A DNA stretch of 64,000 bases from Chloroflexota bacterium (GTDB taxonomy: Bacteria > Chloroflexota > Dehalococcoidia > JACQUA01): assembly GCA_016210565.1 (NCBI GenBank), contig JACQUA010000173.1, forward strand, positions 1 to 64,000, in the 5' to 3' direction. Made by a program: the position numbers and the translations under genes. Of the stretch, positions 152 to 39,440 are shown one piece after another. Every line of letters begins with the position of its first letter. The stretch's first letter is position 1. Below the pieces are notes generated by a model. The model saw nothing but the letters and a program-made list of their open reading frames with translations. It searched no databases and was not told the origin of the DNA.

Positions 152-367
152 GGGCGGCTATTTTCATCCTTCATGGTGCTGGGCCAACGAAGCACGAATG
201 ATTGCACCGAAATTAGAGCTTTGGCCACTGAACCGGGTACGGCGAAAGCTCTCGCAGGCCTTCTCCTCGCATATGGATTCCCCACAACCGTTCAGCCGTC
301 CCGATTCCTTCGGAACAGACTGATCGCCACTCAGAAACGTGGTGCCAAATATCGTCTCCATGTTCCA

Positions 368-397
368 TTGACAACTATAGCTAACATCGGGTATACT
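368..397 (+). promoter_or_regulatory. Sigma70-type promoter of the first fusion regulator
   Basis: TTGACA at 368-373 and TATACT at 392-397 are separated by 18 bases. The expected transcript start near 404 gives a leader of about 20 bases carrying the ribosome site AAGGAGG at 410-416. The second regulator copy has the same TTGACA-N18 arrangement at 26952-26981. Confidence 0.7.
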
Positions 398-422
398 GAG
401 GATGTCCCTAAGGAGGTGTTGT

Positions 423-1487
423 ATGTTCGTTAGAGTCAAAGACACTGGTAGATACCGCTATCTCCAACTTGTGAGAAATCATCGCGAGGGATCGAGGTCT
501 GTGCAGCGCGTGCTGTGTACCCTCGGGCGTCTGGAAGAGCTTCAAGAACAGGGGCGCATCGATGTCCTCGTACGTTCTTTGGCGCGCTTTCGCAAGCCAC
601 CTGAGCCAAGCGATCTGAACGGGCCGTGTCGTCCCAGGTCGGGCAGGGCGGGCAAATTGAAACCTGACTATTCATCCGGGACGATCCCCCAACCCACGGC
701 TAGGATTACGTCACCGCCGCTGCGTCCGGGACCTTCGACGATCACCGAACCAAGAGATCCTTCCGAGGCAAATGACCTGGAACCACTGACATTCTCGGAG
801 ATTCATAAAAGTGCGGAAGTTCTCGGAAAGTCTCCCATGTTCTCGGATTTGGATAAGGCGCACCTTTTGGAGCTTTCCCGGTTCGCTCGACAACGTCACC
901 TGAAGGCCCGTGAGTTCTTGTTCTTTGCCGGTGACACGTTGGAATGTTGCTACTTGATAGCTTCCGGGAGAATCAAACTATTGAAGCATTCCTTTTCTGG
1001 GAAAGACTTCATCACGGGAGCTTACGGCGCCGGGGAAATGTTGAGTACCACACTGCTTTTTACCGGCAAGACGCACCCCTCTTCCGCCCAGGCCATGATC
1101 GATAGTAAGGTGCTGGTAATAAAGAATGATAGCTTTGTCTCTTTTCTTCACAGGTTTCCTGAGTTGGGCATTGGAATCGTGGCGAAAATTCTAGATGCTG
1201 TTGGCGGACGGCACCAGGCTGCGACAGTGCAGCTCAGCGAACTCGCGGCCGAGAGGGCCGAGTACCGACTGGCTCGGGTGTTGTCTACACTTAGCCTGAA
1301 GTTCGGTTCTAGCATACCTTTCTCCCGACACGAAATTGGAGAAATGGCCGGAACGAGCACCGAGACGGCCGCGCGATTTGTTGCCCGATTGAGCCGGGGA
1401 GGCGTGGTCCGATCAACCCGCGGAAGGATAGTGGTTATGCACCCGAACAAGCTCCGGCTTCTGGCCGAAGCTCAATTGTCGGCATAG
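423..1487 (+). CDS. Crp/Fnr-family regulator with transposase-like N-terminal segment (copy 1)
   Basis: The 354-residue protein starts at ATG 423, 6 bases after AAGGAGG; an in-frame ATG at 402 lies upstream of that site and is less likely. Residues 1-57 (MFVRVKDTGRYRYLQLV, then REGSRSVQRVLCTLGRLEEL) resemble the extreme N-terminus of IS1634/IS4-type transposases, by my recall of that family. A low-complexity linker spans about 58-125. Residues 128-245 form a cyclic-nucleotide-binding-like beta barrel (FLFFAGD, CYLIASGRIKLL). Residues 298-342 are the Crp-type winged helix, with HEIGEMAGTSTETAARF. No N-terminal cysteine cluster of the FNR kind is present, so the ligand is unknown. It is probably a cytoplasmic transcription factor. 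A paralogue with the same architecture lies at 27005-28057. The regulator call is strong; the origin of the N-terminus is inferred. Confidence 0.85.
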   Translation: MFVRVKDTGRYRYLQLVRNHREGSRSVQRVLCTLGRLEELQEQGRIDVLVRSLARFRKPPEPSDLNGPCRPRSGRAGKLKPDYSSGTIPQPTARITSPPLRPGPSTITEPRDPSEANDLEPLTFSEIHKSAEVLGKSPMFSDLDKAHLLELSRFARQRHLKAREFLFFAGDTLECCYLIASGRIKLLKHSFSGKDFITGAYGAGEMLSTTLLFTGKTHPSSAQAMIDSKVLVIKNDSFVSFLHRFPELGIGIVAKILDAVGGRHQAATVQLSELAAERAEYRLARVLSTLSLKFGSSIPFSRHEIGEMAGTSTETAARFVARLSRGGVVRSTRGRIVVMHPNKLRLLAEAQLSA

Positions 1488-1920
1488 AGGCCAGTACCCC
1501 CCGGTTGCGCATTGGAGGACCTAGATTTTCATCACGTTGCCCAATCTTTGAAGATCCTATCCAGTTGATTGAGCTACATCACAGACGTAGGGCTTGTTGA
1601 GCGGCTAAACTAACGCTTGACCTTTGTTTGCAGGATGACCGCGCCGGGTCCCAGCAGAATGCGTCGGGCGAAGCATTCCGCCCCTCGAACCATGTGGCCG
1701 CGGCCTCACTGCAAACCGGCGCACGTGTCGCAGGACCTAGATGCGGCGGCACAAATGACCGGCTCCGCTTCTTGCTACGGGAGATTAGCCCAGTTGGCGG
1801 CCGGGGAGTCCTATCAGCAGGGGATTACCCATCGGACAAACTTGCAGAAAGACTAATCGGGAACGGGGGATAGCGCCTTAGAAGAACTCACAGTACCCCA
1901 GCTAGAAGGAGGATAGAAAG
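1488..1920. other. Intergenic region without a recognised gene
   Basis: These 433 bases hold only short open frames with no family resemblance, and their codon use differs from the neighbours. I see no clear promoter or repeat. A ribosome site, AGAAGGAGG, near 1905-1913 serves the next gene. Confidence 0.5.
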
Positions 1921-3081
1921 ATGCAGCCCATACTGGCTATGACGCTCGCGGTTGCCTTATTCGCTTCGGTTGCTGGAGCCTGTGCCGCTAGACAGGAGCA
2001 AACCCTGGAGGCAAGACCAGGTATCGGATCCGGTGTCACTGCCAGCGCTGATAAGAAGAGTTTGGCATCGGAATGGGAGACACTGGTGGAGGCAGCTAGA
2101 CGGGAGGGTACAGTTAACCTGTACGATTCGTGGAACCCGGAAGTCCATATTGCTTTGCGGAGCAAGTTTGCCGAGAAGTTCGGCATAGAACTGACATTTA
2201 CTTCGGTACCTAAGGGCCAGGAACTGGTCCCAAAACTGGAGAGAGAGCGGATGGCGGGTCTGTATCTGGCAGATGTCGTCGGGAGCGCTTCAACAGTCGT
2301 CCTTGTCCTGATGAAACCGAAAGGAATGCTGGATCCCATCGAACCTATGCTCGTCCTGCCGGAGGCGAAGGACGCCAGCATTCGTGTTGGCGGCAAACTT
2401 TTCCTGGACATGGAGCAAAAGCTTTATGTTCCGTTGAGCGCCCAACTTGACCCGTTGCTATCTCGCAACACCGGACTCGTAAGGGATGGTGAGATAAAAT
2501 CCTTTTCGGATCTCTTGGACCCCAAATGGCGAGGCAAGATTGCCATGAACGACCCAACCAGTGTCGGTTCGGGTCTCAGTTTTGTAAACCTGATCGTAGA
2601 CAAATGGGGCAGGGACAAGGCCACAGATTACTTTCGGCAGTTCGTCAAGCAGGAGCCCCTTGTAGGCCGGGATTTCCGTATCCTTGTCGAGTGGCTGGGG
2701 AGGGGTAAGGTTGCACTAGGCGTTGGGTTGCCAGTCCGCGAAGTGATGGCGTTCAAGGACATGGGAGCGCCGGTAGCCTTTGTGAAAGCCGCGGAAGGGG
2801 GGGTGGTCGGTAACGGTCCGGGCGGTATCGCCAGACCCGCCGGAAAACTGCCACATCCCAACGCGGCTAAGCTGTTCGTTAACTGGCTCCTCACCAAGGA
2901 GGGCTCGAGCTTGTTTAGCAAGGGGAATTCGCAGCCGAGCGCACGGTTGGACGTGTCCACCGAAGGGTTTGAAGACGTGGCTGCCCGAGCCGGAGACGTG
3001 TTCGAAGATGAGGACGCGGTAAACAGAAAGGCTCAACTGATCGATTTCGCCAGAGAAATCTTTGCACCGATTTTGCAATGA
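1921..3081 (+). CDS. Extracellular solute-binding lipoprotein (COG1840-like) 1
   Basis: This 386-residue protein has a hydrophobic N-terminal segment ending in a probable lipobox cysteine (C21, VAGAC), so it should be anchored outside the cytoplasmic membrane. The signal lacks the usual basic residues. The mature part starts with the family signature EWETLVEAARREGTVNLYDS and carries DLLDPKWRGKIAMNDP and HPNAAKLFVNWLLTKEG. These are typical of iron(III)-type and related periplasmic binding proteins of class II fold. Five such proteins occur in this island (others at 4744, 5993, 7318 and 16525), but no ABC permease or ATPase is visible, so the transport partner and the ligand are unknown. A ribosome site (AGAAGGAGG) precedes the ATG. 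Confidence 0.85.
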   Translation: MQPILAMTLAVALFASVAGACAARQEQTLEARPGIGSGVTASADKKSLASEWETLVEAARREGTVNLYDSWNPEVHIALRSKFAEKFGIELTFTSVPKGQELVPKLERERMAGLYLADVVGSASTVVLVLMKPKGMLDPIEPMLVLPEAKDASIRVGGKLFLDMEQKLYVPLSAQLDPLLSRNTGLVRDGEIKSFSDLLDPKWRGKIAMNDPTSVGSGLSFVNLIVDKWGRDKATDYFRQFVKQEPLVGRDFRILVEWLGRGKVALGVGLPVREVMAFKDMGAPVAFVKAAEGGVVGNGPGGIARPAGKLPHPNAAKLFVNWLLTKEGSSLFSKGNSQPSARLDVSTEGFEDVAARAGDVFEDEDAVNRKAQLIDFAREIFAPILQ

Positions 3082-9531: not shown

Positions 9532-10695
9532 ATGGACAGTAAATCTTTGCCAAATGAGACAATCATATTTCACGCCGTGGGCGATGTGGGTCCCAGGCGC
9601 ATCGAGTACGGGGAAACCCCCGAGTCCCTCTTCGCTATGGTGCATCAGAAAGTGAAAGAGGCGGACATATCTTTCTGTCAACTGGAAAGAAATTTCTCGA
9701 CCCGGGGCTGCTTTCAATACCGGAACCATCCGACCTGGTACGCCCGGGTTCATCCCGACAATGTCAAGTCTCTGGTCTTCGCCGGCTTCAACGTTGTCTC
9801 CAACGCCAGCAACCACTGCTTCGAGTACGGCCCCGAGGCCTTGCTAGAAAGCATCGATGTTCTGCGAGGCAACAACATTCAGGTCATCGGGGTCGGCAAG
9901 GACATCGCCGAAGCCAGGAAACCGGCCATCGTCGAGCGCAAGGGAATCAAGGTTGGCTTCCTGGCCTACAACGCCATACTCGCCACCGAGATCGAGGCCC
10001 GCGAAGACAAACCGGGATGCACTCCCATCCATGTGGACACCTACTATCAGTCCCAGGACTTCGCCCCGGGAATGCCGCCCAGGATAGTGACCATCCCGTT
10101 GGAAGGAGATGTGCGGGCAATGGAAGAGGATATTCGTAAATTGCGGAACCAGGTAGATGTGGTAGTCGTTTCCATGCACTGGGGAATATATTTCATACCT
10201 GGGGCAATAGCCATGTATCAACCAACCGTGGGACACCGGGCGATTGATGCGGGGGCGGATCTCATTGTGGGGCATCATGACCACATAATCAAGGGCATAG
10301 AGATATTCAGAGGAAGGGTGATCTTCTACGGACTGGGCAACTTTGCGGAAGAGACGCCATTTCAGGTAAAAGCACCGTCAGGAGTGCATGCTGGACGTCC
10401 TACCTACAAATATCGAAAATGGCAACCAGAACCGGGGTGGGAGCGATACAACGCGCCTGTCGATTGGCGTTACTCCATGATGGTCAGGTGCGTTATCACG
10501 AAGAAGGGGATTCAAAGAGTGTCATTCTTGCCAACGTGGATCAACGGGCGGGCGGAGCCTGAAGTACTGTCTGGAAAAGACCCCAGATTTCAGGAGGTTC
10601 TGAACTACGTTGAGCCGTGGTGCCGCGAACTGGGCACGGCTCTCCGGATAGAAGGGGATGAGGTGATTGTTTGGAAATCCCAGGAGCCGACTTAA
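9532..10695 (+). CDS. CapA-like metallophosphatase family protein, copy 1
   Basis: The 387-residue protein belongs to the CapA/PgsA group (PF09587), which has a calcineurin-like metallophosphatase fold. Metal-site-like motifs are HAVGDVGPRR, SNASNHCFEYG, VVSMHWGIYF, VGHHDHIIKGIE and FYGLGNF. Unlike classical CapA of poly-gamma-glutamate synthesis it has no N-terminal membrane anchor, so it should be cytoplasmic and probably does something else. It is the first of five tandem paralogues. Bases 9574-9689 are identical to 10774-10889 of the next copy, which points to gene conversion. Its real substrate is unknown. The ribosome site is weak (GAAGAAAA). Confidence 0.85.
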   Translation: MDSKSLPNETIIFHAVGDVGPRRIEYGETPESLFAMVHQKVKEADISFCQLERNFSTRGCFQYRNHPTWYARVHPDNVKSLVFAGFNVVSNASNHCFEYGPEALLESIDVLRGNNIQVIGVGKDIAEARKPAIVERKGIKVGFLAYNAILATEIEAREDKPGCTPIHVDTYYQSQDFAPGMPPRIVTIPLEGDVRAMEEDIRKLRNQVDVVVVSMHWGIYFIPGAIAMYQPTVGHRAIDAGADLIVGHHDHIIKGIEIFRGRVIFYGLGNFAEETPFQVKAPSGVHAGRPTYKYRKWQPEPGWERYNAPVDWRYSMMVRCVITKKGIQRVSFLPTWINGRAEPEVLSGKDPRFQEVLNYVEPWCRELGTALRIEGDEVIVWKSQEPT

Positions 10696-10731
10696 GCACC
10701 ATATCCTGATACACACTCCAAAAGGGAGACT

Positions 10732-11883
10732 ATGGATAACGAAGCAGCAGCAAAGGAAACAATTGTGCTCTGTGCCGTGGGCGATGTGGGTCCCAGGCGC
10801 ATCGAGTACGGGGAAACCCCCGAGTCCCTCTTCGCTATGGTGCATCAGAAAGTGAAAGAGGCGGACATATCTTTCTGTCAACTGGAAAGGAATTTTTCAA
10901 CTGCGGGTCATTTTCAATACAGAAATCATCCGACGTGGTACGCCCGGGTCCATCCGGACAATGTCAAATCACTGGTCTTTGGAGGGTTCAATGTAGTCTC
11001 CAATGCCAGCAATCACTGCTTTGATTATGGCCCCGAGGCGTTGCTGGAGAGTATCGACGTTCTACGGAAGAACAACATCCAGGTCATCGGCGTAGGTAAG
11101 GACATCGCCGAAGCCAGGAAACCGGCAATCATCGAGCGGAAGGGAATCAAGGTTGGATTCCTCGCCTATAACTCAATACTGGCCATGGAAATTGAGGCGC
11201 GTGAAGATAAGCCCGGATGCAGTCCTGTTCGCATTTCAACGTTCTACGAGGCGCAGGACTTTGCCCCGGGAACGCCCCCCAGGATAATCAGTTTTCCGCG
11301 CGAAGAGGACGTGATTGGCATGGAAGATGACATCCGTAAGCTGCGAAATCAAGCAGACGTGGTGATTGTTTCCATGCACTGGGGGATGTATTTCATGCGC
11401 GGCGCCTTAGCCATGTACCAGCCGATCGTCGGCCACCGGGCTATCGACGCCGGGGCGGACCTTGTCGTGGGGCATCATGACCACATAATCAAGGGCATAG
11501 AGGTATACAAGGGGCGGGCCATTTTCTACGGCCTGGGCAATTTTGCCGAGGAGACGCCAAACCACTTGAAGCCGCCGCCGGGAGCGTTTTCCAGGATCAG
11601 CATAGGAAAGTATCGCAAAGTGCACCAGGAGAAGGGATGGGAACGGTACGGCGGCCTGGTCGATAAACGATACTCCATGGTCGCCAGGTGCCTCGTCGGC
11701 AAAAAAGGGATTCAAAAGGTATCGTTCCTGCCCACGTGGATCAATCAACGCGCCGAGCCTGAGATACTCTCCCGCAAGGACCCGAGATTTCAGGAAGTGC
11801 TGGATTACGTCGAGCCGCAGTGCACAGACCTGGGAACGGCTCTTGAGCTTGAAGGGGATCAGGTGGTTGTTCGGAATTCGTAG
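10732..11883 (+). CDS. CapA-like metallophosphatase family protein, copy 2
   Basis: The 383-residue protein has the same motif set as copy 1: CAVGDVGPRR, SNASNHCFDYG, VSMHWGMYF, VGHHDHIIKG and FYGLGNF. It begins 36 bases after copy 1 with AAAGGGAG before the ATG, so the genes are likely cotranscribed. Its first 40 or so codons contain the 116-base block identical to copy 1, while the rest has diverged, mostly at third codon positions. No signal peptide or transmembrane segment is seen. Function is inferred only at family level (putative metal-dependent hydrolase). Confidence 0.85.
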   Translation: MDNEAAAKETIVLCAVGDVGPRRIEYGETPESLFAMVHQKVKEADISFCQLERNFSTAGHFQYRNHPTWYARVHPDNVKSLVFGGFNVVSNASNHCFDYGPEALLESIDVLRKNNIQVIGVGKDIAEARKPAIIERKGIKVGFLAYNSILAMEIEAREDKPGCSPVRISTFYEAQDFAPGTPPRIISFPREEDVIGMEDDIRKLRNQADVVIVSMHWGMYFMRGALAMYQPIVGHRAIDAGADLVVGHHDHIIKGIEVYKGRAIFYGLGNFAEETPNHLKPPPGAFSRISIGKYRKVHQEKGWERYGGLVDKRYSMVARCLVGKKGIQKVSFLPTWINQRAEPEILSRKDPRFQEVLDYVEPQCTDLGTALELEGDQVVVRNS

Positions 11884-11976
11884 AATCCACTCAATCGAGA
11901 ACGCCAATTTCTCACCTGCGGGTTGTCCAGACTGAGGACAACAAGACTATCATGCGGACCGTTTCGAGGAGAATAA

Positions 11977-13080
11977 ATGACTCAGCACAAGGTATCCTTA
12001 TATGCGGTAGGAGATGTTGCTGTCAGCCGTGAAGATCCTGAATCGATCTTCGCCCTGGCGGCGCCGACCCTCAAAGAGGCCGATATCCGCTTCGGACAAA
12101 TTGAAAATATCCTGTCCGAAAGGGGTATTCTTCAAGTTCACGTGTCCAGCCGGGCTGCTCACCCGAAGAATGTCGCTGCGCTCACCTACGCGGGATTCGA
12201 CGTCATGTCGGCGGCCAGCAACCATACCCTGGACTGGGGCTATGACGGCCTTTTTGACACCGTGGACCTTTTGAGAAACAATGGCATCACGGTGATTGGC
12301 GTGGGAAAGAATTCCGAAGAAGCCCGCCAACCGGCCATTGTTGAGCGCAAGGGTACCAGGGTGGCGTTTCTCGACTACTGCAGCGTCTTGCCCAAAGGCT
12401 ATGAAGCCACACCGGACAAACCTGGCGCATCGGCGATAAGAGTCTCCACAGCCTACGAGCAAATGGACTGGCAACCCGGAACGCCTCCCAGAGTCCTGTC
12501 TTTCGCCAACAAGCAAGACCTGGAAGCCATGGTGAACGACATCAAGAAGGTGAGGAGTCAGTCGGATATCGTAGTAATGTCAATTCACTGGGGCATCCAC
12601 TATGTCCCCTCTTTATTAGCCATGTACCAGAGGGAAGTCGCCTATGCCGCCATCGACGCCGGCGTCGACCTCATCCTGGGGCATCATGCCCACATTCTGA
12701 AAGGGATTGAGGTCTACAAGGGCAAGGTCATCTTTTACAGCCTCTGCAACTTTGCCTTCGACCTCGGCCCCATTGAAAGAATTCGGAAATTGATCTACTG
12801 GCAAGTCTACCGGTGGGAACTGGATCCGGACTATTCCGCCTATCCCTTCCCTCCGGATTCCAGAAAGACCACCATCGCCAAATGCATCATGTCCGACAGG
12901 AAAATCGAGAGGGTCTCTTTCTTACCCGTGATGATCAACAAGCGGGCGCAGCCCGAGGTTCTGGTACGTTCCGACCCCCGCAGCGACCAGGTCTTTGACT
13001 ACGTGGCGTGGCTCTGCAAGGACCAGCATCTGGATACCAGGTTCCGTAGGGAAGGTGACGAGGTAATCATCGGGGTTTGA
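11977..13080 (+). CDS. CapA-like metallophosphatase family protein, divergent copy 3
   Basis: The 367-residue protein is the most divergent of the five. It keeps YAVGDVAVSRED, ASNHTLDWG, MSIHWGIHY, LGHHAHILKGIEVYKG and FYSLCNFAFD, so the putative metal-binding residues remain. It lacks the PRR-x-EYG stretch that follows the first motif in the others and has a shorter N-terminus. ATG 11977 is preceded by CGAGGAG. Divergence in the middle of an otherwise homogeneous array suggests a distinct substrate or an older duplicate. Cytoplasmic; function unknown beyond the family. Confidence 0.83.
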   Translation: MTQHKVSLYAVGDVAVSREDPESIFALAAPTLKEADIRFGQIENILSERGILQVHVSSRAAHPKNVAALTYAGFDVMSAASNHTLDWGYDGLFDTVDLLRNNGITVIGVGKNSEEARQPAIVERKGTRVAFLDYCSVLPKGYEATPDKPGASAIRVSTAYEQMDWQPGTPPRVLSFANKQDLEAMVNDIKKVRSQSDIVVMSIHWGIHYVPSLLAMYQREVAYAAIDAGVDLILGHHAHILKGIEVYKGKVIFYSLCNFAFDLGPIERIRKLIYWQVYRWELDPDYSAYPFPPDSRKTTIAKCIMSDRKIERVSFLPVMINKRAQPEVLVRSDPRSDQVFDYVAWLCKDQHLDTRFRREGDEVIIGV

Positions 13081-13121
13081 ACCGATGGGAAACCCGGTTA
13101 AATTTTGAACGAAAAGTGGAC

Positions 13122-14276
13122 ATGAACAACCAATCCGCACCAGGCAATACCATCCTGTTTCACGCCGTGGGAGACGTCGGCCCCAGGCGAGTGGAATACG
13201 GCGAAGACCCCGAATCCCTTTTCGCCATGACGCACGAAAAGATCAAGGAAGCAGACATATCTTTTTGCCAGCTCGAGAAGAACCTTTCCACCAGGGGTTG
13301 CCTCCAGTGGGCCGATCGGGTTACGTGGTACGGACGTATCAGTCCGGAAAATGTCAAATCGCTGGTCTATGCCGGCTTCGACGTTATCTCTCACGCCAGC
13401 AATCATTGTTTTGATTATGGCCCGGAGTCGCTCCTTGAAACTATCGACGTCTTGCGCCACAACGATATCCAGGTCATCGGAGTGGGAAAAGATATCGCCG
13501 AAGCCAGAAAGCCGGCTATTGTTGAGCGGAAAGGGATCAAGGTTGGATTCCTGGCTTACTGCTCCGTGCTCCCTCCAGAAATCGAAGCCCGCGAAGAGAA
13601 ACCGGGATGTTGTCCCATCCGCGTTTCCACCTACTACGAGGCCCAGGATTTTGCCCCGGCCATGCCGCCGGTGGTGATCACCGTTCCCCGCCAGGAAGAT
13701 GTTCTGGACATGGAAGAAGATATTCGCAGTTTGCGAAAGCAGGTGGACATCGTGGTCGTTTCTATGCACTGGGGGATACATTTCGTCCCCGGGGCCCTCG
13801 CGATGTACCAGCCGGTCGTTGGCCACCGGGCGATCGATGCCGGCGCCGACCTCATTCTGGGCCATCATGACCACATCCTCAAGGGCATAGAAATATACAA
13901 AGGGCGGGCTATCTTCTACGGCCTGGGCAACTTTGCCGAAGAGACCCCCCAGCACGTTAAGCCTCCGCCTGGCGTGTACACCAAGCGCCTTTCGAATATG
14001 CACCGAAAATGGAAACTGGAGCCCGGGTGGGAGCGCTATGACGGCCCCACGGACAAACGGTACTCAATGATGGTCAGATGCGTGTTCGGGAGAAAGGGTA
14101 TTCAGGAAGTCTCCTTCTTGCCGGCGTGGATCAATCAGCGCGCTGAGGCCGAGATATTGTCCGGAAAAGACCCCAGGTTCCAACAGGTGCTGCAATACAT
14201 CCAGCCATGGTGCGACGAACGTGGCACTGCGTTGCACGTGAGGGGGCATAAGGTAGTTGTGCACTGTCAGGCTTGA
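13122..14276 (+). CDS. CapA-like metallophosphatase family protein, copy 4
   Basis: The start at ATG 13122 is chosen because MNNQSAPGNTILFHAVGDVG lines up with the N-termini of copies 1, 2 and 5. A TTG at 13077 overlapping the previous stop is an alternative. The 384-residue product carries the full motif set (HASNHCFDYG, VSMHWGIHFV, LGHHDHILKG, FYGLGNF). It follows copy 3 with a gap of 41 bases. The ribosome site is poor in sequence, so translation may be coupled to the upstream gene. Confidence 0.83.
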   Translation: MNNQSAPGNTILFHAVGDVGPRRVEYGEDPESLFAMTHEKIKEADISFCQLEKNLSTRGCLQWADRVTWYGRISPENVKSLVYAGFDVISHASNHCFDYGPESLLETIDVLRHNDIQVIGVGKDIAEARKPAIVERKGIKVGFLAYCSVLPPEIEAREEKPGCCPIRVSTYYEAQDFAPAMPPVVITVPRQEDVLDMEEDIRSLRKQVDIVVVSMHWGIHFVPGALAMYQPVVGHRAIDAGADLILGHHDHILKGIEIYKGRAIFYGLGNFAEETPQHVKPPPGVYTKRLSNMHRKWKLEPGWERYDGPTDKRYSMMVRCVFGRKGIQEVSFLPAWINQRAEAEILSGKDPRFQQVLQYIQPWCDERGTALHVRGHKVVVHCQA

Positions 14277-14438
14277 ACGGTATTGTGCGTGCCGCGGGCA
14301 GGGCGTAGCCCATGGCTTTAGCCTTGCGGGTTGGGGGGAGGTCAAGCGACCAGGTAGGTCATCCCACAAATGGGATTCGGGGACAAAAGCTCGGGGTCTC
14401 CGTCAGGCCTCGATCATTGATAAGAGAAAGGGACAGCA

Positions 14439-15599
14439 TTGAATACTAAAGCTACGCCAGATAGTTCGATCGTGCTTCATGCCGTGGGCGATGTGGGTCC
14501 GAGGCGGATCGAGTACGGGGAAACGCCTGAGTCCCTCTTCGCGATGGTGCATCAGAAAGTTAAGGAAGCGGATATATCTTTCTGCCAACTGGAAAGGAAT
14601 TTCTCCACCCGAGGTTGCTTTCAATTCCGAAACCATCCAACGTGGTATGCTCGAGTTCACCCCGACAACGTCAAATCGCTGGTATTCGCCGGCTTCAATG
14701 TTGTCTCCAATGCCAGCAATCACTGCTTTGAATACGGCCCCGAAGCGCTACTTGAAAGTATTGACATTCTCCGGAGCAACAACATCCAGGTCATCGGGGT
14801 GGGCAAAGACATCGCTGAAGCCAGGAAACCGGCCGTTTTGGAGCGAAAAGGGATCAAGGTTGGATTCCTGGCCTATAACGCCATACTCGCCGCCGAGATC
14901 GAGGCCCGTGAAGACAAACCGGGATGCACTCCTATCCATGTGGACACCTACTATCAGTCCCAGGACTTCGCCCCGGGGATGCCGCCCAGGATAGTGACCA
15001 TTCCGCTGGAAGAAGATGTTCGAGCCATGGAAGAGGACATCCGTAGGCTGCGGGACCGTGTGGACGCGCTGGTTGTGTCCATGCATTGGGGGATGTACTT
15101 CATACGCGGGGCCATAGCCATGTATCAACCAGCCGTCGGATACCGGGCAATTGATGCCGGGGCCGACCTCGTGGTAGGCCACCATGACCACATAATCAAG
15201 GGCATAGAGATATACAAAGAGCGTGCGATCTTTTACGGCCTAGGAAACTTCGCCGAAGAAGTCCCACATCACGTCAAAGCTCCTGCCGGCGTGCATTCCG
15301 CACGCACCTCACATAAGTACCAGAAGTGGCAGATGGAGCCCGGATGGGAGCGCTATAACTTCCCCGGCGATTACCGGTATTCTGTGATGGCCAGATGCGA
15401 GATCACCAGGGAGGGGATTCAACGGGTATCGTTCTTGCCGACGTGGATCAACCAGCGCGCCGAGCCCGAAATATTGTCCAGAAAAGACCCGCGGTTCCAG
15501 GAAGTACTGGAATACGTTCAGACCTGGAGCAAAGAGCTGGGGACCACCCTTACTCCGGAGGGAGACCAGGTGGTGGTCTACGATTCAAATACGAACTAA
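14439..15599 (+). CDS. CapA-like metallophosphatase family protein, copy 5
   Basis: The start is TTG 14439, preceded by GAAAGGGA at 14426-14433, and the N-terminus then aligns with the other copies. The 386-residue protein contains HAVGDVGPRR, SNASNHCFEYG, VSMHWGMYFI, VGHHDHIIKG and FYGLGNFAEE. A segment around 14945-14990 is identical over more than 40 bases with copy 1 (around 10027-10070), although the two genes differ elsewhere. This is a further sign of recombination within the array. The family assignment is sound; the biochemical role is not known. Confidence 0.84.
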   Translation: MNTKATPDSSIVLHAVGDVGPRRIEYGETPESLFAMVHQKVKEADISFCQLERNFSTRGCFQFRNHPTWYARVHPDNVKSLVFAGFNVVSNASNHCFEYGPEALLESIDILRSNNIQVIGVGKDIAEARKPAVLERKGIKVGFLAYNAILAAEIEAREDKPGCTPIHVDTYYQSQDFAPGMPPRIVTIPLEEDVRAMEEDIRRLRDRVDALVVSMHWGMYFIRGAIAMYQPAVGYRAIDAGADLVVGHHDHIIKGIEIYKERAIFYGLGNFAEEVPHHVKAPAGVHSARTSHKYQKWQMEPGWERYNFPGDYRYSVMARCEITREGIQRVSFLPTWINQRAEPEILSRKDPRFQEVLEYVQTWSKELGTTLTPEGDQVVVYDSNTN

Positions 15600-21291: not shown

Positions 21292-21621
21292 GCGGCTGCG
21301 CCGCGATTTGACGGACAAGCCGCGGCCCGTTGGGTTCGTCGCCCGGGATCCGCGCGGCAACCGTCTATCGTGAGCCACGAACAAACTCTGGTCGCCTGCA
21401 AGGTTGGTAATTGACAGGCTGCAAATTGTGCCGGCGAACGTTTTTCCGCCGGGGGGAACAAACTGGCCTTATGGGCATAACTGACACCAAACCCGGTGGG
21501 TGAGTTATCGCCATTGACTTGCTGCCCCGAAGATCCCCTGCTGCACGAAACACGAATCGCCCGCGCCCAACCGGGCCATGCTGCTTGACAAGGAGACGTC
21601 CAGACGTCTATTATTCAGGGC
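21292..21621. other. Intergenic region, no gene recognised
   Basis: About 330 bases separate the MmgE/PrpD gene from the methyltransferase gene. Short open frames here show no family features. I see no clear promoter pair or terminator. This boundary probably marks the end of the catabolic island and the start of a restriction-modification cassette. Confidence 0.5.
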
Positions 21622-22785
21622 ATGAAGCCGGAGAAGGCGAATACAGAGAACGCCAGATACGCCCCGGGGCAGGTGCGAGACGCGATTATTCAGGTCCTGT
21701 CTCTGACATCGAAGCCGCTATCTGTCAGTGAAATCCAGGAACGTGTCTCCTGCATCATCGGGTCTACGCCCGACTCATCCGTTCGCTCGTATCTGCGCCT
21801 GAACACTCCCGACCTTTTCGTGCGGGAGACCCGCGGGATGTATGCGGTGCAAACAACACCCGGGGGAGTCCAGAAGGGCTTTCCTGATCTCCAGCCATGG
21901 CGTGAACCCGCCCGGTTTGGCAAATCTACCATTGTTCATGCTGACTGCTTCGACTGGATAGCACAACAACAGGATAACGCCTTTCACGCCGTTGTCACCG
22001 ACCCACCCTATGGTCTGTATGAGTATTCACCGGAACAACAGAATAAGCTCCGGAGCGGCAAAGGCGGCGTATGGCGAATTCCGCCGTCCTTCGACGGGCA
22101 CGATAGAAGCCCCCTACCGAGATTCACTACCCTAACCCCACAGCAACTCAGGGACCTCAGGACGTTCTTCTTCTACTGGGCGAGACTGCTTCTGCCCAAA
22201 ATAGTCCCCGGCGCACACGTCGTCGTTGCCTCCAGCCCGCTGGTGTCACACATAGTCTCGGGATCGTTGTCAGACGCCGGATTGGAACGGCGAGGGGAGA
22301 TCATCCGCCTGACCATGACCCTGCGAGGCGGCGATCGTCCGAAGGCCGCTCACAATGAGTTCCCCGGCGTCAGCGTCATGCCGCGCTCAATGTGGGAACC
22401 ATGGCTTGTCTACCGGAGACCAGTCGAAGGGAGAGTACAGGATAACCTGAGGAAATGGGCCACCGGAGGCTTTCGCCGGCCGTCTCCTGAGAAGCCTTTC
22501 GGGGATGTGATCGTATCGGCGCCGACCAGGAAAGCCGAACGCGCCCTGGCCCCACACCCGAGCCTAAAGCCCCAGGCGTTTCTCAGGCAGGTTGTCCGCG
22601 CGGTGCTGCCGCTGGGCCAGGGGACAATTCTCGACCCCTTCGCCGGAGCCGGGTCCACTCTGGCTGCAGCCGAGGCCGTCGGCTATCAGTGCACCGGAAT
22701 CGAGAAGGACGTACGTTTCTTTGACATGGCTTGCGATTCCATCCCCAGACTGATACGCTTCACGCCGAACGGGGAACGCCCGTGA
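21622..22785 (+). CDS. Beta-class DNA amino-methyltransferase with winged-helix N-terminus
   Basis: The 387-residue protein has a winged-helix-like N-terminal domain (about residues 15-80, with LSVSEIQERVS). The catalytic motif DPPY follows at 127-130, and near 341-360 comes the AdoMet-binding motif DPFAGAGSTLAAAEAVG. The order DPPY before FxGxG is that of beta-class enzymes making N6-methyladenine or N4-methylcytosine. A convergent gene at 22916-23602 encodes a probable endonuclease, so this is likely the modification half of a type II system. The fused helix-turn-helix could help DNA binding or control its own expression. Confidence 0.85.
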   Translation: MKPEKANTENARYAPGQVRDAIIQVLSLTSKPLSVSEIQERVSCIIGSTPDSSVRSYLRLNTPDLFVRETRGMYAVQTTPGGVQKGFPDLQPWREPARFGKSTIVHADCFDWIAQQQDNAFHAVVTDPPYGLYEYSPEQQNKLRSGKGGVWRIPPSFDGHDRSPLPRFTTLTPQQLRDLRTFFFYWARLLLPKIVPGAHVVVASSPLVSHIVSGSLSDAGLERRGEIIRLTMTLRGGDRPKAAHNEFPGVSVMPRSMWEPWLVYRRPVEGRVQDNLRKWATGGFRRPSPEKPFGDVIVSAPTRKAERALAPHPSLKPQAFLRQVVRAVLPLGQGTILDPFAGAGSTLAAAEAVGYQCTGIEKDVRFFDMACDSIPRLIRFTPNGERP

Positions 22786-26808: not shown

Positions 26809-26951
26809 GCTTGAAGCACCCGGTAGCGGCACGCCGCCAGGCCGCGGCCGGCTTTGGCGGTCGTCACGCGACCGGTCCCGACGGGGTGGGGTGGGGGAAT
26901 CTTGAATCCTGGAATCCTTCTTGAAGTGCCAACACCGCTGGTGATTTCACA

Positions 26952-26981
26952 TTGACATCCCCCCGCTGCCGGATATATCAT
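26952..26981 (+). promoter_or_regulatory. Sigma70-type promoter of the second fusion regulator
   Basis: TTGACA at 26952-26957 is followed after 18 bases by TATCAT at 26976-26981. TATATC at 26974-26979 with a 16-base spacer is an alternative. The start codon at 27005 leaves a leader of under 20 bases with AAAGG at 26994-26998. The layout closely copies that of the paralogue at 368-423. Confidence 0.65.
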
Positions 26982-27004
26982 TGCGGTGTCCAGAAAGGCT
27001 AATC

Positions 27005-28057
27005 ATGTTCGTGAGAGTGAAGGGCGCCCGCAAATACCGGTACCTGCAACTGGTGGAAAATCGCCGCGAGGGAGACCGGACGGTGCAGCGTGTTCTCTGT
27101 ACCCTGGGCAGGGTGGAAGACCTCGAAACCCGCGGCGGCATCGATGTTCTTCTCCGGTCGCTCGGGCGGTTCGGCAGGTTGGTCACAGTGTGCACCCACA
27201 GCGGGGCGCAATGCCCGAAAGCAGAGGACCCGGAGTTGCCCGGACCGGACGCCAGGCCCGCGTCCGGTGGGCTGACGGCGTCCACCGGCGTCCTGCCGGT
27301 TTCCCCCCACATCGACGCCGCCCGGGCCAGACATATACCGTGGAGCTCCGGAAGTGTTTCCCCTTCGAATCGCGAAAAAGCCGTCGATATCCTCAGGAAG
27401 TCCTTCATCTTCTCGGGTCTAGACCAGAAACACCTGATCGAACTGTCCCGGCTGGTTGTTGAACGGGAGCTCAAGGCCGGCCAGTTCCTGTTTTTCGAAG
27501 GCCAACCGGTGGGATTCTGTCATCTGGTAGCCTCGGGGGTAATGAAGCTCGTCAAGCATTCGGCCTCGGGCGTAGATTTCATAATAGACGTATACGGCCG
27601 GGGTGAGATGATGGGCATCACGCTTCTGTTTGCCGCCGGCAAGCCACACACGGTGTCCGCCCAGGCGGTGCTCGACGCCCGCGTACTGTCTATCTCCAGC
27701 AGCGGCCTCATCCGCTTTCTCCACCGCTACCCGGCGTTCAGCACTGATATCCTGGGGAAGATGCTCACCCTTTCCGGCCAACGGTACCAGGCTGATACCT
27801 CACGGCTCACAGACGTTCCCGGGGAGAGGACCGAGTACCGCCTGGCCCGCGTCCTCTGGGTCCTGTGCCGGAGGCTGGGACCCGGGATTCCTCTAACACG
27901 CCGCGAGATCGCCGAGATGACAGGGACCACCATCGAGACGACATCCCGGTTCATAAGCCGGTTGAAGCGGGATGGAATCGTGCGCGCGCTTCGCGGCAAG
28001 GTAGTGATCGTGGACCACGACAAGCTTGGACAACTGGCAGGGACGGGCGGGGGTTAG
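27005..28057 (+). CDS. Crp/Fnr-family regulator with transposase-like N-terminal segment (copy 2)
   Basis: The 350-residue protein starts at ATG 27005 (AAAGG six bases before). Residues 1-57 (MFVRVKGARKYRYLQLV, then REGDRTVQRVLCTLGRVEDL) match copy 1 and resemble the N-terminus of IS1634-type transposases. A variable linker occupies 58-125. A cyclic-nucleotide-binding-like barrel covers about 127-240 (FLFFEGQP, CHLVASGVMKLVKH), and a Crp-type winged helix is at 298-342 with REIAEMTGTTIETTSRF. There is no FNR-type cysteine set near the N-terminus. A TTGAT-N4-ATCAT site 36 bases downstream of its stop could be a Crp/Fnr-type binding site for it or for a relative. Confidence 0.85.
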   Translation: MFVRVKGARKYRYLQLVENRREGDRTVQRVLCTLGRVEDLETRGGIDVLLRSLGRFGRLVTVCTHSGAQCPKAEDPELPGPDARPASGGLTASTGVLPVSPHIDAARARHIPWSSGSVSPSNREKAVDILRKSFIFSGLDQKHLIELSRLVVERELKAGQFLFFEGQPVGFCHLVASGVMKLVKHSASGVDFIIDVYGRGEMMGITLLFAAGKPHTVSAQAVLDARVLSISSSGLIRFLHRYPAFSTDILGKMLTLSGQRYQADTSRLTDVPGERTEYRLARVLWVLCRRLGPGIPLTRREIAEMTGTTIETTSRFISRLKRDGIVRALRGKVVIVDHDKLGQLAGTGGG

Positions 28058-28092: not shown

Positions 28093-28106
28093 TTGATGCA
28101 AATCAT
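28093..28106 (+). promoter_or_regulatory. Candidate Crp/Fnr-type operator
   Basis: TTGAT at 28093-28097, GCAA, then ATCAT at 28102-28106 matches the FNR consensus half sites at 9 of 10 positions. A weak promoter-like pair follows (TTGCAG 28106-28111, TAAACT 28129-28134). If real, the site is centred about 41 bases before the transcript start, the class II activation position. The next gene, at 28366, would then have a leader of about 225 bases. Confidence 0.4.
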
Positions 28107-28365
28107 TGCAGTCCCCTTCCGGACGGACTAAACTCCTTCTGCCCGACAACAAGGGACGTGCATGGAGATGCGCCGGCAAATGCCCGGAAGCAAGACTCCT
28201 GTCGATTGCTCCCGCCTACCCGAGTCGGTCCACCGCGGCCTGGAACCACCGGGGGGGACGGTGAATGTTGGCCTGAAGCCGCTCCCTTGCCTTCAATCCC
28301 CGGCCACAAGGGGGAAAGGACATCTATTCCGCGGGCCGTTTTGGTCCAGGGTCAAGAGCTGAATA

Positions 28366-29904
28366 ATGCGTAAGACTATTCCGCAAAAATGGGATATTGA
28401 GACCGACGTCGTTGTTGTGGGATACGGGTGCGCCGGCGCAACCGCCGCCATAACGGCCAGCGATGAGGGCGCCGCTGTCACCATCCTGGAGAAGATGCCC
28501 GCCGGCGGCGGCAATACGCGGATATCCGGCGGCGGCTGGCTGACGCCCACAGACGTGGGGTTTGCCGAATACGTAGAGACCCTCTGCGGTGGCCTTACAG
28601 AACGTGAGGTGATCAGAACGTTCGTGAAGAAGGCTATGGGCATCGGGGAGTGGGTCAAAAGCGTGGGCGGAGAAGCCCGTGTTTTCAAGCCCGCGCAGGT
28701 CTCGTATGTTGCGGGTCCGTTCCCTGGAGCCAGTTTTCCCTGGCTTCCCGGCTCGCAGCATATGCTAAAGATGAAACTCAAGGAACCCGCCGATGATGGC
28801 GAAGGACTCTGGAAGTTCTTTACCGATACAGTGGAGAAAAGGCCCATCAGAGTCATGCTCAACACGCGGGCGGAGGAGTTGATTCTCAACGAAAAGGGTG
28901 AAGTGGCCGGCGTCATGGCGCGCAAGGAAGGCGGGCAGCTCTTCATCAAGGCCAGGAGGGGAGTTATCCTGACAACCGGGGGCTTCGGACGCGACGAAGA
29001 GGCCAAGCGCGACTTCCTGCCCTGCCGGCCCTTCTTTGATTTCGGGAATCCGGCCAATACCGGGGACGGCATCAGACTGGCCCAAAAGGTTGGCGCCGCA
29101 CTGTGGCACATGCCGGCCACTTCAGCAGCCCTTGGCTTCAAGACCCCCGAATATGACGCCGCCTTTTGCATCAGTTTCAAGACCGAAAGGTTCATTTTTG
29201 TTAACCGGGACTGCCGGCGATTTGTGGATGAAACGGGACTGGAGGACCACGAGATCGCCGCCATCGTCTCCACGTTTGACGCCCGCCGGTGGTCTTATCC
29301 CAATATTCCGGCCTATGGCATTTTCGATGAAACAGGCAGAAAGAAGGCCCCCTTATTTGAAGGGAACAGCGGCTTTAACCGCACCCTGTATAAGTGGAGC
29401 CCGGATAGCTCCATCGAAATCGAAAAGGGATGGGTGATCAAAGGAAACACGATAGCTGAGCTGGCCCGCAAGATCAAGCTAAACGAGGCCGGGTTGGAGC
29501 AGGGTCTCTCGCAGTACGCGGGATACTGCCGGACCGGCAAGGACGAGGACTTCGGGCGGGCCGGTGAAACCCTGGTCCCCCTCGACACGCCACCCTATTA
29601 CGCCATCGAGCTTTATCCCTGCCTGTGCAACACCCAGGGCGGGCCGCGCCGCGATAGTGAGTCCCGGGTGCTGGACCCCGACGGCGAACCCATTCCAAGA
29701 CTCTATGCCGCCGGGGAGCTGGGGTCCATCTGGGGTTTCATCTACCAGGGCGGCGGTAACAATGCGGAATGCATCGTTTTCGGCCAGATAGCGGGAAGCA
29801 ACGCCGCAGCGGAAAAGCCGTGGGACGACTCAAAGGGAAACGCCAGGCGTGTGGTGAGCTGCATCGGAGACAGGATTGACGGCCCCAACGCAAGAGCTGG
29901 TTGA
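28366..29904 (+). CDS. FAD-dependent dehydrogenase (fumarate reductase/ketosteroid dehydrogenase type)
   Basis: The 512-residue protein begins with the FAD-binding Rossmann motif VVVGYGCAGATAA near residues 13-25, followed by GGNTRISGGGW. The C-terminal FAD stretch includes RLYAAGELGS and GGGNNAECIVFGQIAG. This is the flavoprotein family that includes fumarate reductase, urocanate reductase and 3-oxosteroid dehydrogenases. Members oxidise or reduce carbon-carbon bonds next to a carbonyl group. No signal peptide is visible, so it is probably cytoplasmic. Two MmgE/PrpD genes follow on the same strand, suggesting one organic acid pathway. The exact substrate is unknown. Confidence 0.85.
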   Translation: MRKTIPQKWDIETDVVVVGYGCAGATAAITASDEGAAVTILEKMPAGGGNTRISGGGWLTPTDVGFAEYVETLCGGLTEREVIRTFVKKAMGIGEWVKSVGGEARVFKPAQVSYVAGPFPGASFPWLPGSQHMLKMKLKEPADDGEGLWKFFTDTVEKRPIRVMLNTRAEELILNEKGEVAGVMARKEGGQLFIKARRGVILTTGGFGRDEEAKRDFLPCRPFFDFGNPANTGDGIRLAQKVGAALWHMPATSAALGFKTPEYDAAFCISFKTERFIFVNRDCRRFVDETGLEDHEIAAIVSTFDARRWSYPNIPAYGIFDETGRKKAPLFEGNSGFNRTLYKWSPDSSIEIEKGWVIKGNTIAELARKIKLNEAGLEQGLSQYAGYCRTGKDEDFGRAGETLVPLDTPPYYAIELYPCLCNTQGGPRRDSESRVLDPDGEPIPRLYAAGELGSIWGFIYQGGGNNAECIVFGQIAGSNAAAEKPWDDSKGNARRVVSCIGDRIDGPNARAG

Positions 29905-31539: not shown

Positions 31540-31571
31540 CCGACCCCGTTTGCAGCCGCAGGGGCAGCCAC

Positions 31572-31630
31572 GTAGGGTGGGTTAAGCACGGAGGGGTGTC
31601 CGGGAAGGAGGATGGCCGTGCGAACCCACC
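31572..31630. repeat. GTAGGGTGGGTTAAGC repeat
   Basis: CGTAGGGTGGGTTAAGCACG at the left and GCGAACCCACC at the right form complementary arms. It is a copy of the dispersed family described at 30000-30057, in the opposite orientation. It is in the 380-base gap between the tandem MmgE/PrpD genes. Confidence 0.7.
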
Positions 31631-31842
31631 AGGAGATGGACGCCAGGCAAAGCTGCCCGACGGCGCGCGCAGGGACAACCTTATTGCCGTGTATCAAATT
31701 CGAAGTTGGAGGAAAACACCAATCATTGGCAAATGTTCCGTAACATGACCCTGATAAGGCTGGCCTGCTTCGCCCTGGTCTTTGCATCCCTCAGGGAATA
31801 GAACACGCCGCACATCTTTTCCCACTTCGAAAAGGCCGCAAA

Positions 31843-33308: not shown

Positions 33309-33366
33309 GTAGGGTGGGTTAAGCACCGGGGGGAAGGGGGGACGAGGTTGGCTGTGCGAACCCGCC
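33309..33366. repeat. GTAGGGTGGGTTAAGC repeat
   Basis: AGTAGGGTGGGTTAAGCACC and GTGCGAACCCGCC mark the ends. The copy directly follows the fourth MmgE/PrpD gene. Confidence 0.65.
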
Positions 33367-33460
33367 AGGTGAAATGACGAATAGTTGATACGGTTATGAG
33401 ACTACTGGAAACATTGTACGATGTGGGACCCATCCCCCGGCTGCCGGCTTAGAATAGCAT

Positions 33461-39086: not shown

Positions 39087-39440
39087 CTATCAGCTTTCAG
39101 CGGTCAGCGCCAAATCAATAATCAAAAAGCCCCGTAGGGTGGGTTAAGCACAGCGGGGTGGCAGGGCAGGAGGATGGCTGTGCGAACCCACCACCAGCAG
39201 TAAATTCCAAATGCCACGCACCAAATTCCAAACAACATCCAAATCCCAATGATCAAATGCCAAGACAGGTCCCGCCGGTTTGTTCATTTGGAATTTCGTC
39301 ATTGGAATTTGTTTGGAATTTGGAATTTGACCATTGGAATTTGTTCAGATCGCTGGTGGGTTCGCGCCACTAACCCCGTCAGCACCGCCCATTTGCGCTT
39401 AACCCACCCTACATGCTGGCTCACAGGCACGGTGGCCTGT
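39087..39440. repeat. Repeat-filled gap between yebC and ruvC
   Basis: This region holds two copies of the GTAGGGTGGGTTAAGC family (39134-39192 and, inverted, 39355-39412). It also holds a run of TTGGAATTTG units near 39285-39350, an AGCTATCAGCTTTCAGC element near 39087 and an ACAGGCACGGTGGCCTGT hairpin at its right end. No gene is seen. Confidence 0.65.

Follow-up and report, generated by a model that had tools for sequence, protein, structure and literature searches.

In eukaryotes, many transcription factors are known to have arisen from the DNA-binding domains of transposases. The bacterial cases that we found involve mainly XRE and antitoxin helix-turn-helix (HTH) domains (PMC8987985), and the regulators described here resemble those host-co-opted XRE/HigA regulators and antitoxins in that HTHs from mobile elements are reused (the XRE-type front of one copy, C366, is a HigA homologue), but differ in that the HTH forms the front of a fusion with an entire Crp regulator, where other fronts can take its place. 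On the evidence of their sequences, they belong to the Crp/Fnr regulators and are HcpR-like: they share with the HcpR/FNR-like branch (PMC1274295) the Crp fold and an FNR-like site. The HcpR1 consensus is TTGACnnnnGTCAA, set against TTGAYnnnnRTCAT here, and a recognition helix of the GTTTETASRF type, without Arg180 and with Glu181 kept, fits TTGA rather than TGTGA half-sites (PMC1274295). In four of six relatives examined, the single copy is followed by a gene whose predicted start resembles that of a 4Fe-4S ferredoxin, reminiscent of ‘hcpR-frdX’. Unlike HcpR, however, the present family has a second, N-terminal module that is predicted to bind DNA, is amplified 24-fold in one genome (G000), where its copies precede other genes, and has predominantly catabolic predicted targets. 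The third point of reference is provided by IS1634 elements (DDE_Tnp_1), matched by the first 56 residues and by some 100 nt upstream in the order of boxes and promoter, but differing from the genes described here, which have neither the catalytic domain nor the terminal inverted repeat GTTCTACAGT. No report of a transposase-Crp fusion came up in a search of the literature.

Two members of the family, copies A and B, lie in the window, by which we mean the whole stretch of 64,000 nucleotides that was analysed (Table 1). They are paralogues with 46% protein identity over their whole length, distributed unevenly: 71% in the N-terminal domain (N-domain), 49% in the Crp body, and 23% in the linker, where shuffled linkers give a mean of 26%. 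The first-pass annotation had described copy B as a second fusion with the same layout, its linker strongly diverged between conserved ends, and both descriptions hold; N-domain, linker, Crp body and promoter layout are common to the two genes. Its starting point, position 26952, is the -35 hexamer of the copy B promoter; the ORF caller places the start at a TTG (26981) upstream of the ATG that we prefer. With start codons chosen by homology of the front domain, the distance from promoter end to ATG is 25 nt for copy A and 23 nt for copy B. A Pfam scan found PF00027 and PF13545 above the cut-off in both proteins. By inspection, neither has an arginine at the position of CRP Arg82, which makes cAMP an unlikely effector.

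Table 1. Coordinates of features of copies A and B in the window
Feature	Position	Strand	Remarks
Copy A outer IS1634-type box CGTGGTGCCAAATATC	338..353	+	PWM 14.4, p 0.001
Copy A promoter TTGACA-N18-TATACT	368..397	+	
Copy A weak inner box TGAGGATGTCCCTAAG	397..412	+	read by position; not found by PWM
Copy A gene	423..1487	+	same plan as copy B
Copy A front module, IS1634 transposase N-domain	423..590	+	
Copy A linker	591..791	+	67 aa
Copy A Crp body	792..1487	+	
Crp/Fnr-type palindrome TGAGCTACATCA after copy A	1570..1581	+	-10 TAAACT at 1606-1611
Probable target of copy A: gene for an extracellular solute-binding protein (SBP_bac_8)	1921..3081	+	
Copy B outer IS1634-type box TGAAGTGCCAACACCG	26922..26937	+	second-best PWM match, 7.6, p 0.002, at -83
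Copy B promoter TTGACA-N18-TATCAT	26952..26981	+	sigma-70-type
Copy B inner IS1634-type box TGCGGTGTCCAGAAAG	26982..26997	+	PWM 11.6, p 0.006
Copy B gene	27005..28057	+	ATG at 27005, stop ends at 28057; 350 aa
Copy B front module, IS1634 transposase N-domain	27005..27172	+	56 aa; tblastn, class transposases, AF2
Copy B linker	27173..27358	+	62 aa; disorder predicted; no better conserved than shuffled sequence
Copy B Crp body	27359..28057	+	cNMP_binding (PF00027) and HTH_Crp_2 (PF13545)
Crp/Fnr-type palindrome TGATGCAAATCA after copy B	28094..28105	+	
Predicted class II promoter of next gene, TTGCAG-N17-TAAACT	28106..28134	+	palindrome centre near -41.5
Probable target of copy B: gene for a FAD_binding_2 flavoprotein	28366..29904	+	

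The front part had been called a transposase fragment, and this identification stands: in tblastn searches the N-domain of copy B aligns with the start of IS1634 family transposases, the closest of which in the class are 60-66% identical to copy B over 62 residues. The IS1634-type transposase of genome G078 has 523 aa and carries PF01609; in the window copies the DDE catalytic domain is absent, and only Crp domains follow the N-domain. No Pfam family exists for the IS1634 N-domain, which AlphaFold2 (AF2) predicts as a beta-beta-beta-alpha-alpha fold (pLDDT 85), followed by a linker (residues 54-119) predicted to be disordered. Fold searches with the N-domain gave no confident match: Foldseek reached E 1.1 at best and VIA-align no more than Z 4.0. 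The top VIA-align matches, to Pur-alpha, PC4 and integrase arm-binding domains, are a lead only.

Across the eight close copies of the N-domain, identity at the three codon positions is 0.73/0.84/0.42, compared with 0.62/0.72/0.40 for the body and 0.41/0.46/0.30 for the linker. Third positions are diverged to a similar degree in N-domain and body, so it is constraint, and not recent copying, that keeps the N-domain protein better conserved; this domain is under strong purifying selection. The comparison of substitution rates between regions that the first-pass annotation proposed therefore gives a constrained N-domain, and neutral evolution is not borne out. Together with the presence of the domain in ten copies, this selection rules out an accidental read-through fusion, against which the first-pass annotation had also argued.

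Both genes are preceded, as had been noted, by the same TTGACA-N18-TATxxT layout. Matches to it number three in the window, against 0.02 expected, and 67 in the whole genome, which means that the layout alone is nothing unusual. Relatives' IS1634 elements offer an origin for it: here the order is a box (TGTRGTGCCAAAT), the -35 and -10 elements, a further box (TGTGGTGTCYAAT), a Shine-Dalgarno sequence and the ATG, with a third box, in the same orientation, 3' of the transposase gene. The G078 element is flanked by GTTCTACAGT/ACTGTAGAAC repeats, and the window contains no copy of the terminal inverted repeat (TTCTACAGT/ACTGTAGAA). A position weight matrix (PWM) made only from ten transposase boxes, scanned over 150 nt upstream of all 24 family genes, gave best scores of 7.2-19.0 in nine of the ten copies with an IS1634-type front, and no more than 6.1 in the 14 others, none of which reached that range. 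Scores are weak in several copies (p 0.11 in C28; no box found in C242), and only a minority have two significant boxes. The separation by score nonetheless indicates that promoter layout, boxes and N-domain were derived together from an IS1634-type left end, descent from which would account for the layout shared by the window copies. Nine related XRE-type copies have an upstream palindrome of their own, GTAACA-NN-TGTTAC, with a log-likelihood of 34.0 against 20.5 for dinucleotide shuffles (sd 1.8, max 24.5) and leave-one-out p<=0.025 in six of the nine; it is weak in IS1634-type upstream regions. This specificity implies that the upstream element goes with the front domain and not with the body.

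A search for further copies, which the first-pass annotation had suggested, expanded the pair to a family: at E<=1e-20 for the Crp body, G000 (6.53 Mb in 419 contigs) contains 24 copies, the two window genes among them, all with an N-terminal extension of 79-175 aa. The IS1634-type N-domain heads ten of these, both window genes included (eight close to one another, and C242 and C389 diverged), and the fronts of the remaining copies match Pfam HTHs: XRE-type in 12, an IS630-like HTH in C29b, whose Crp HTH is missing, and a winged helix (PF13601) in C207. Nine of the XRE heads form a single family that, one weak match aside, occurs in G000 exclusively as part of fusions. Contamination was considered as a source of the copies and is ruled out, as all family loci match the tetranucleotide profile of the window (r 0.86-0.94, against 0.50-0.73 for relatives); the presence of two copies on this one contig also speaks against it. 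No family copies were found in viral contigs, nor any plasmid matches covering 80% of the protein.

Outside this genome, the Crp body (E<=1e-42) occurs in 44 others among 393 of the class, as a single copy in all except one, which has two; at E<=1e-20 none was found in one other genome of the same order. The listed open frames of these relatives span 134-307 aa, against 339-391 aa for the G000 copies listed with them, and neither N-extension nor amplification was found in the class relatives that carry the body. The fusion had been judged old enough to have been duplicated; these mostly single-copy bodies without N-extension indicate that extension and amplification are, as far as sampled, specific to the G000 lineage, and that the extension is not old in the class. 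In five of the six single-head relatives examined, the downstream palindrome lies just after the gene, and in four (G051, G012, G039 and G035) a downstream gene has a ferredoxin-like start, CxxCxxC...C; the one such gene scanned had no Pfam match. Being common to single-head relatives, the rear half, that is the Crp gene with its outward class II promoter, is probably ancestral.

In G000, exactly one TGA-N6-TCA occurs within 450 nt downstream of the stop codon in 20 of the 24 genes, against a null of 2.3 (max 8) from shuffles that keep dinucleotides but not ancestry, the 20 sites being partly inherited with the gene and not independent. When the spacing is changed to 2-5 or 7-12, only 0-7 genes have a site, and TGA-N6-TCA stands within the 200 nt upstream of 3 of the 24 genes. 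The persistence of these sites beside diverged flanks argues for their function. Their consensus is TTGAY-N4-RTCAT, and a TTGACN-like -35 adjoins the palindrome, with TAxxxT at an offset of 23 or 24 in 16 of the 20, which places the palindrome centre near -41.5, where CRP/FNR proteins sit as class II activators. Of the copies with an altered DNA-binding region, C285 has lost the recognition-helix glutamate (GTATGTATRF) and C29b the HTH, and no site follows either gene; in C22 and C370 the glutamate is retained, yet an exact TGA-N6-TCA site is missing. A same-orientation gene of at least 200 codons follows within ~520 nt in 21 of 24 cases, and the promoter at the site usually faces a catabolic operon; the downstream products scanned include solute-binding proteins, MmgE/PrpD, FAD_binding_2, an AMP-binding (acyl-CoA synthetase-type) enzyme, ATP-grasp (succinyl-CoA-synthetase-like), HGD-D, CoA-transferase III, and members of the PGA_cap, cupin and L-PSP families.

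The class II motif together with its promoter has 23 matches genome-wide, against 2 for a reversed control. Sites without an adjoining family regulator are found at L185, L188, L189, L184 and L187 (contigs C37, C253, C340, C36 and C247), and the genes behind them encode solute-binding or CapA-like proteins. As these sites stand before operons that have no family gene, some Crp heads probably act in trans; the sharing of TGACCCAAATCATTGA between the sites after some copies suggests that heads of different copies may also cross-talk.

Synthesising these observations, we consider it likely that these proteins are ‘two-headed’ local regulators, in which the front head would bind its own promoter and the Crp head would activate the next operon. 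The Crp/Fnr body would bind the TTGAY-N4-RTCAT palindrome near -41.5 of the neighbouring promoter and, as a class II activator, switch on a catabolic or transport operon. The N-terminal head would act as a separate DNA-binding module on a disordered tether, engaging the operator boxes at its own promoter and thereby controlling the level of the regulator. A single-head regulator was amplified, we suggest, and its copies exchanged front cassettes with one another or captured such cassettes repeatedly. The sequences themselves show the family, what its modules are, their incongruent histories, the boxes, the downstream palindromes with their geometry, and purifying selection; from these we infer DNA binding by the IS1634 head, autoregulation, activation and the mechanism of exchange.

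The first-pass annotation had pictured a single transposase-Crp fusion that was duplicated as a unit and kept, an explanation that would account for the promoter layout and N-domain being the same in both window copies, and for the N-domain recurring in ten. The bodies tell a different story: in a maximum-likelihood tree built on trimmed bodies, IS1634-type and XRE-type copies are interleaved, and monophyly is rejected, be it of the ten IS1634-type bodies (p-AU 1e-52), of the eight close ones among them (3e-6) or of the XRE-type bodies (1e-6). Copy B groups with the XRE-type C103, C198 and C366 plus the IS1634-type C104 (support 100/99), copy A groups with C230, and N-domain and body distances are uncorrelated (r = -0.20, p 0.75). 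Duplication of one fusion as a unit is thus very improbable. Non-monophyletic bodies and varied front modules indicate that fronts and bodies have separate histories, the fronts having been exchanged or captured repeatedly; one fusion may have been followed by repeated loss and replacement of its front, which would itself amount to module exchange.

The role of the front head invites two further alternatives. It might not bind DNA at all, serving instead for dimerisation or protein contact, with the boxes as inherited ‘baggage’ of the IS end; the disordered linker and the want of a Pfam family or confident structural match for the IS1634 N-domain are compatible with this, which we nevertheless regard as unlikely, given that every identifiable alternative front is a DNA-binding HTH, that the boxes remain recognisable despite a saturation-like third-position identity (0.42), and that the XRE copies have their own shared palindrome. 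Alternatively, the head might bring the Crp protein to other loci of the genome, in the manner of a regulon, and not mainly to its own promoter. Class II sites of the Crp type with no family gene alongside, and the likely action of the Crp head in trans, lend something to this proposal; against it, the genome as a whole shows no excess of IS1634 boxes (27 against 37), which rules out a large IS1634-box regulon, and near family genes the strongest box matches of most IS1634-type copies lie at their own promoters. We therefore hold it to be quite improbable, and favour the reading in which the front head would act at its own promoter.

What sets this family apart is the apparent acquisition of a transposase N-domain along with its boxes and promoter, in a genome where sibling genes carry alternative front cassettes before the same Crp body. 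These natural replicates in one genome make it testable how paralogous regulators gain separate specificity and insulation, and DNA binding becomes the predicted function of an IS1634 domain that Pfam does not cover. The arrangement suggests that bacteria can build new gene circuits out of transposon parts. More tentatively, and with somewhat less than even confidence, we speculate that front cassettes (operator, promoter and DNA-binding domain) from self-controlled mobile genes, IS ends and XRE genes among them, may join a rear Crp cassette that feeds into catabolic operons, yielding private autoregulatory loops, with transposon ends as a recurrent source of operator-domain pairs.

Several minor observations accompany these results. 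No full-length IS1634 transposase was found in the G000 assembly, which contains only fragments of the N-domain, a single C-terminal piece and contig ends that resemble IS ends. The ends of contigs C85, C218, C390 and C292 (L110, L111, L112 and L113) share near-identical sequence with a GTAGTGCCAAAAA box near the contig end, and this is probably the right end of an IS1634-type element collapsed in the assembly. On contig C409 (L078, 4835-5108), a stand-alone IS1634-type N-domain ORF of ~90 aa, with the inverted repeat GGGAACAA/TTGTTCCC upstream, may be either a free single-head version or a remnant. Upstream of C366 (L064) lie two near-palindromes, ATAATYCTGGATWAT, with no toxin gene alongside; HigA relatives of its front adjoin a toxin-like gene, and inheritance of the operator from higBA is ruled out, as that gene lies upstream in the relatives and the palindromes do not match.

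Within the window, a third TTGACA-N18-TATxxT match (21585-21614) stands directly before a DNA methyltransferase-like gene (22785 being the last position of a frame that begins at 21622) and has no connection with the Crp family. A row of five genes, much alike in size, occupies 9532-15599, four of them with DNA blocks 69-86% identical; both genes scanned are PGA_cap (CapA-like), and relatives of these genes also adjoin other family regulators in G000. Dispersed repeats with GTAGGGTGGGTTAAGC, 73-89% alike and in direct and inverted orientation, lie at 31566-31631, 39128-39193, 33309-33368 and 39353-39412.
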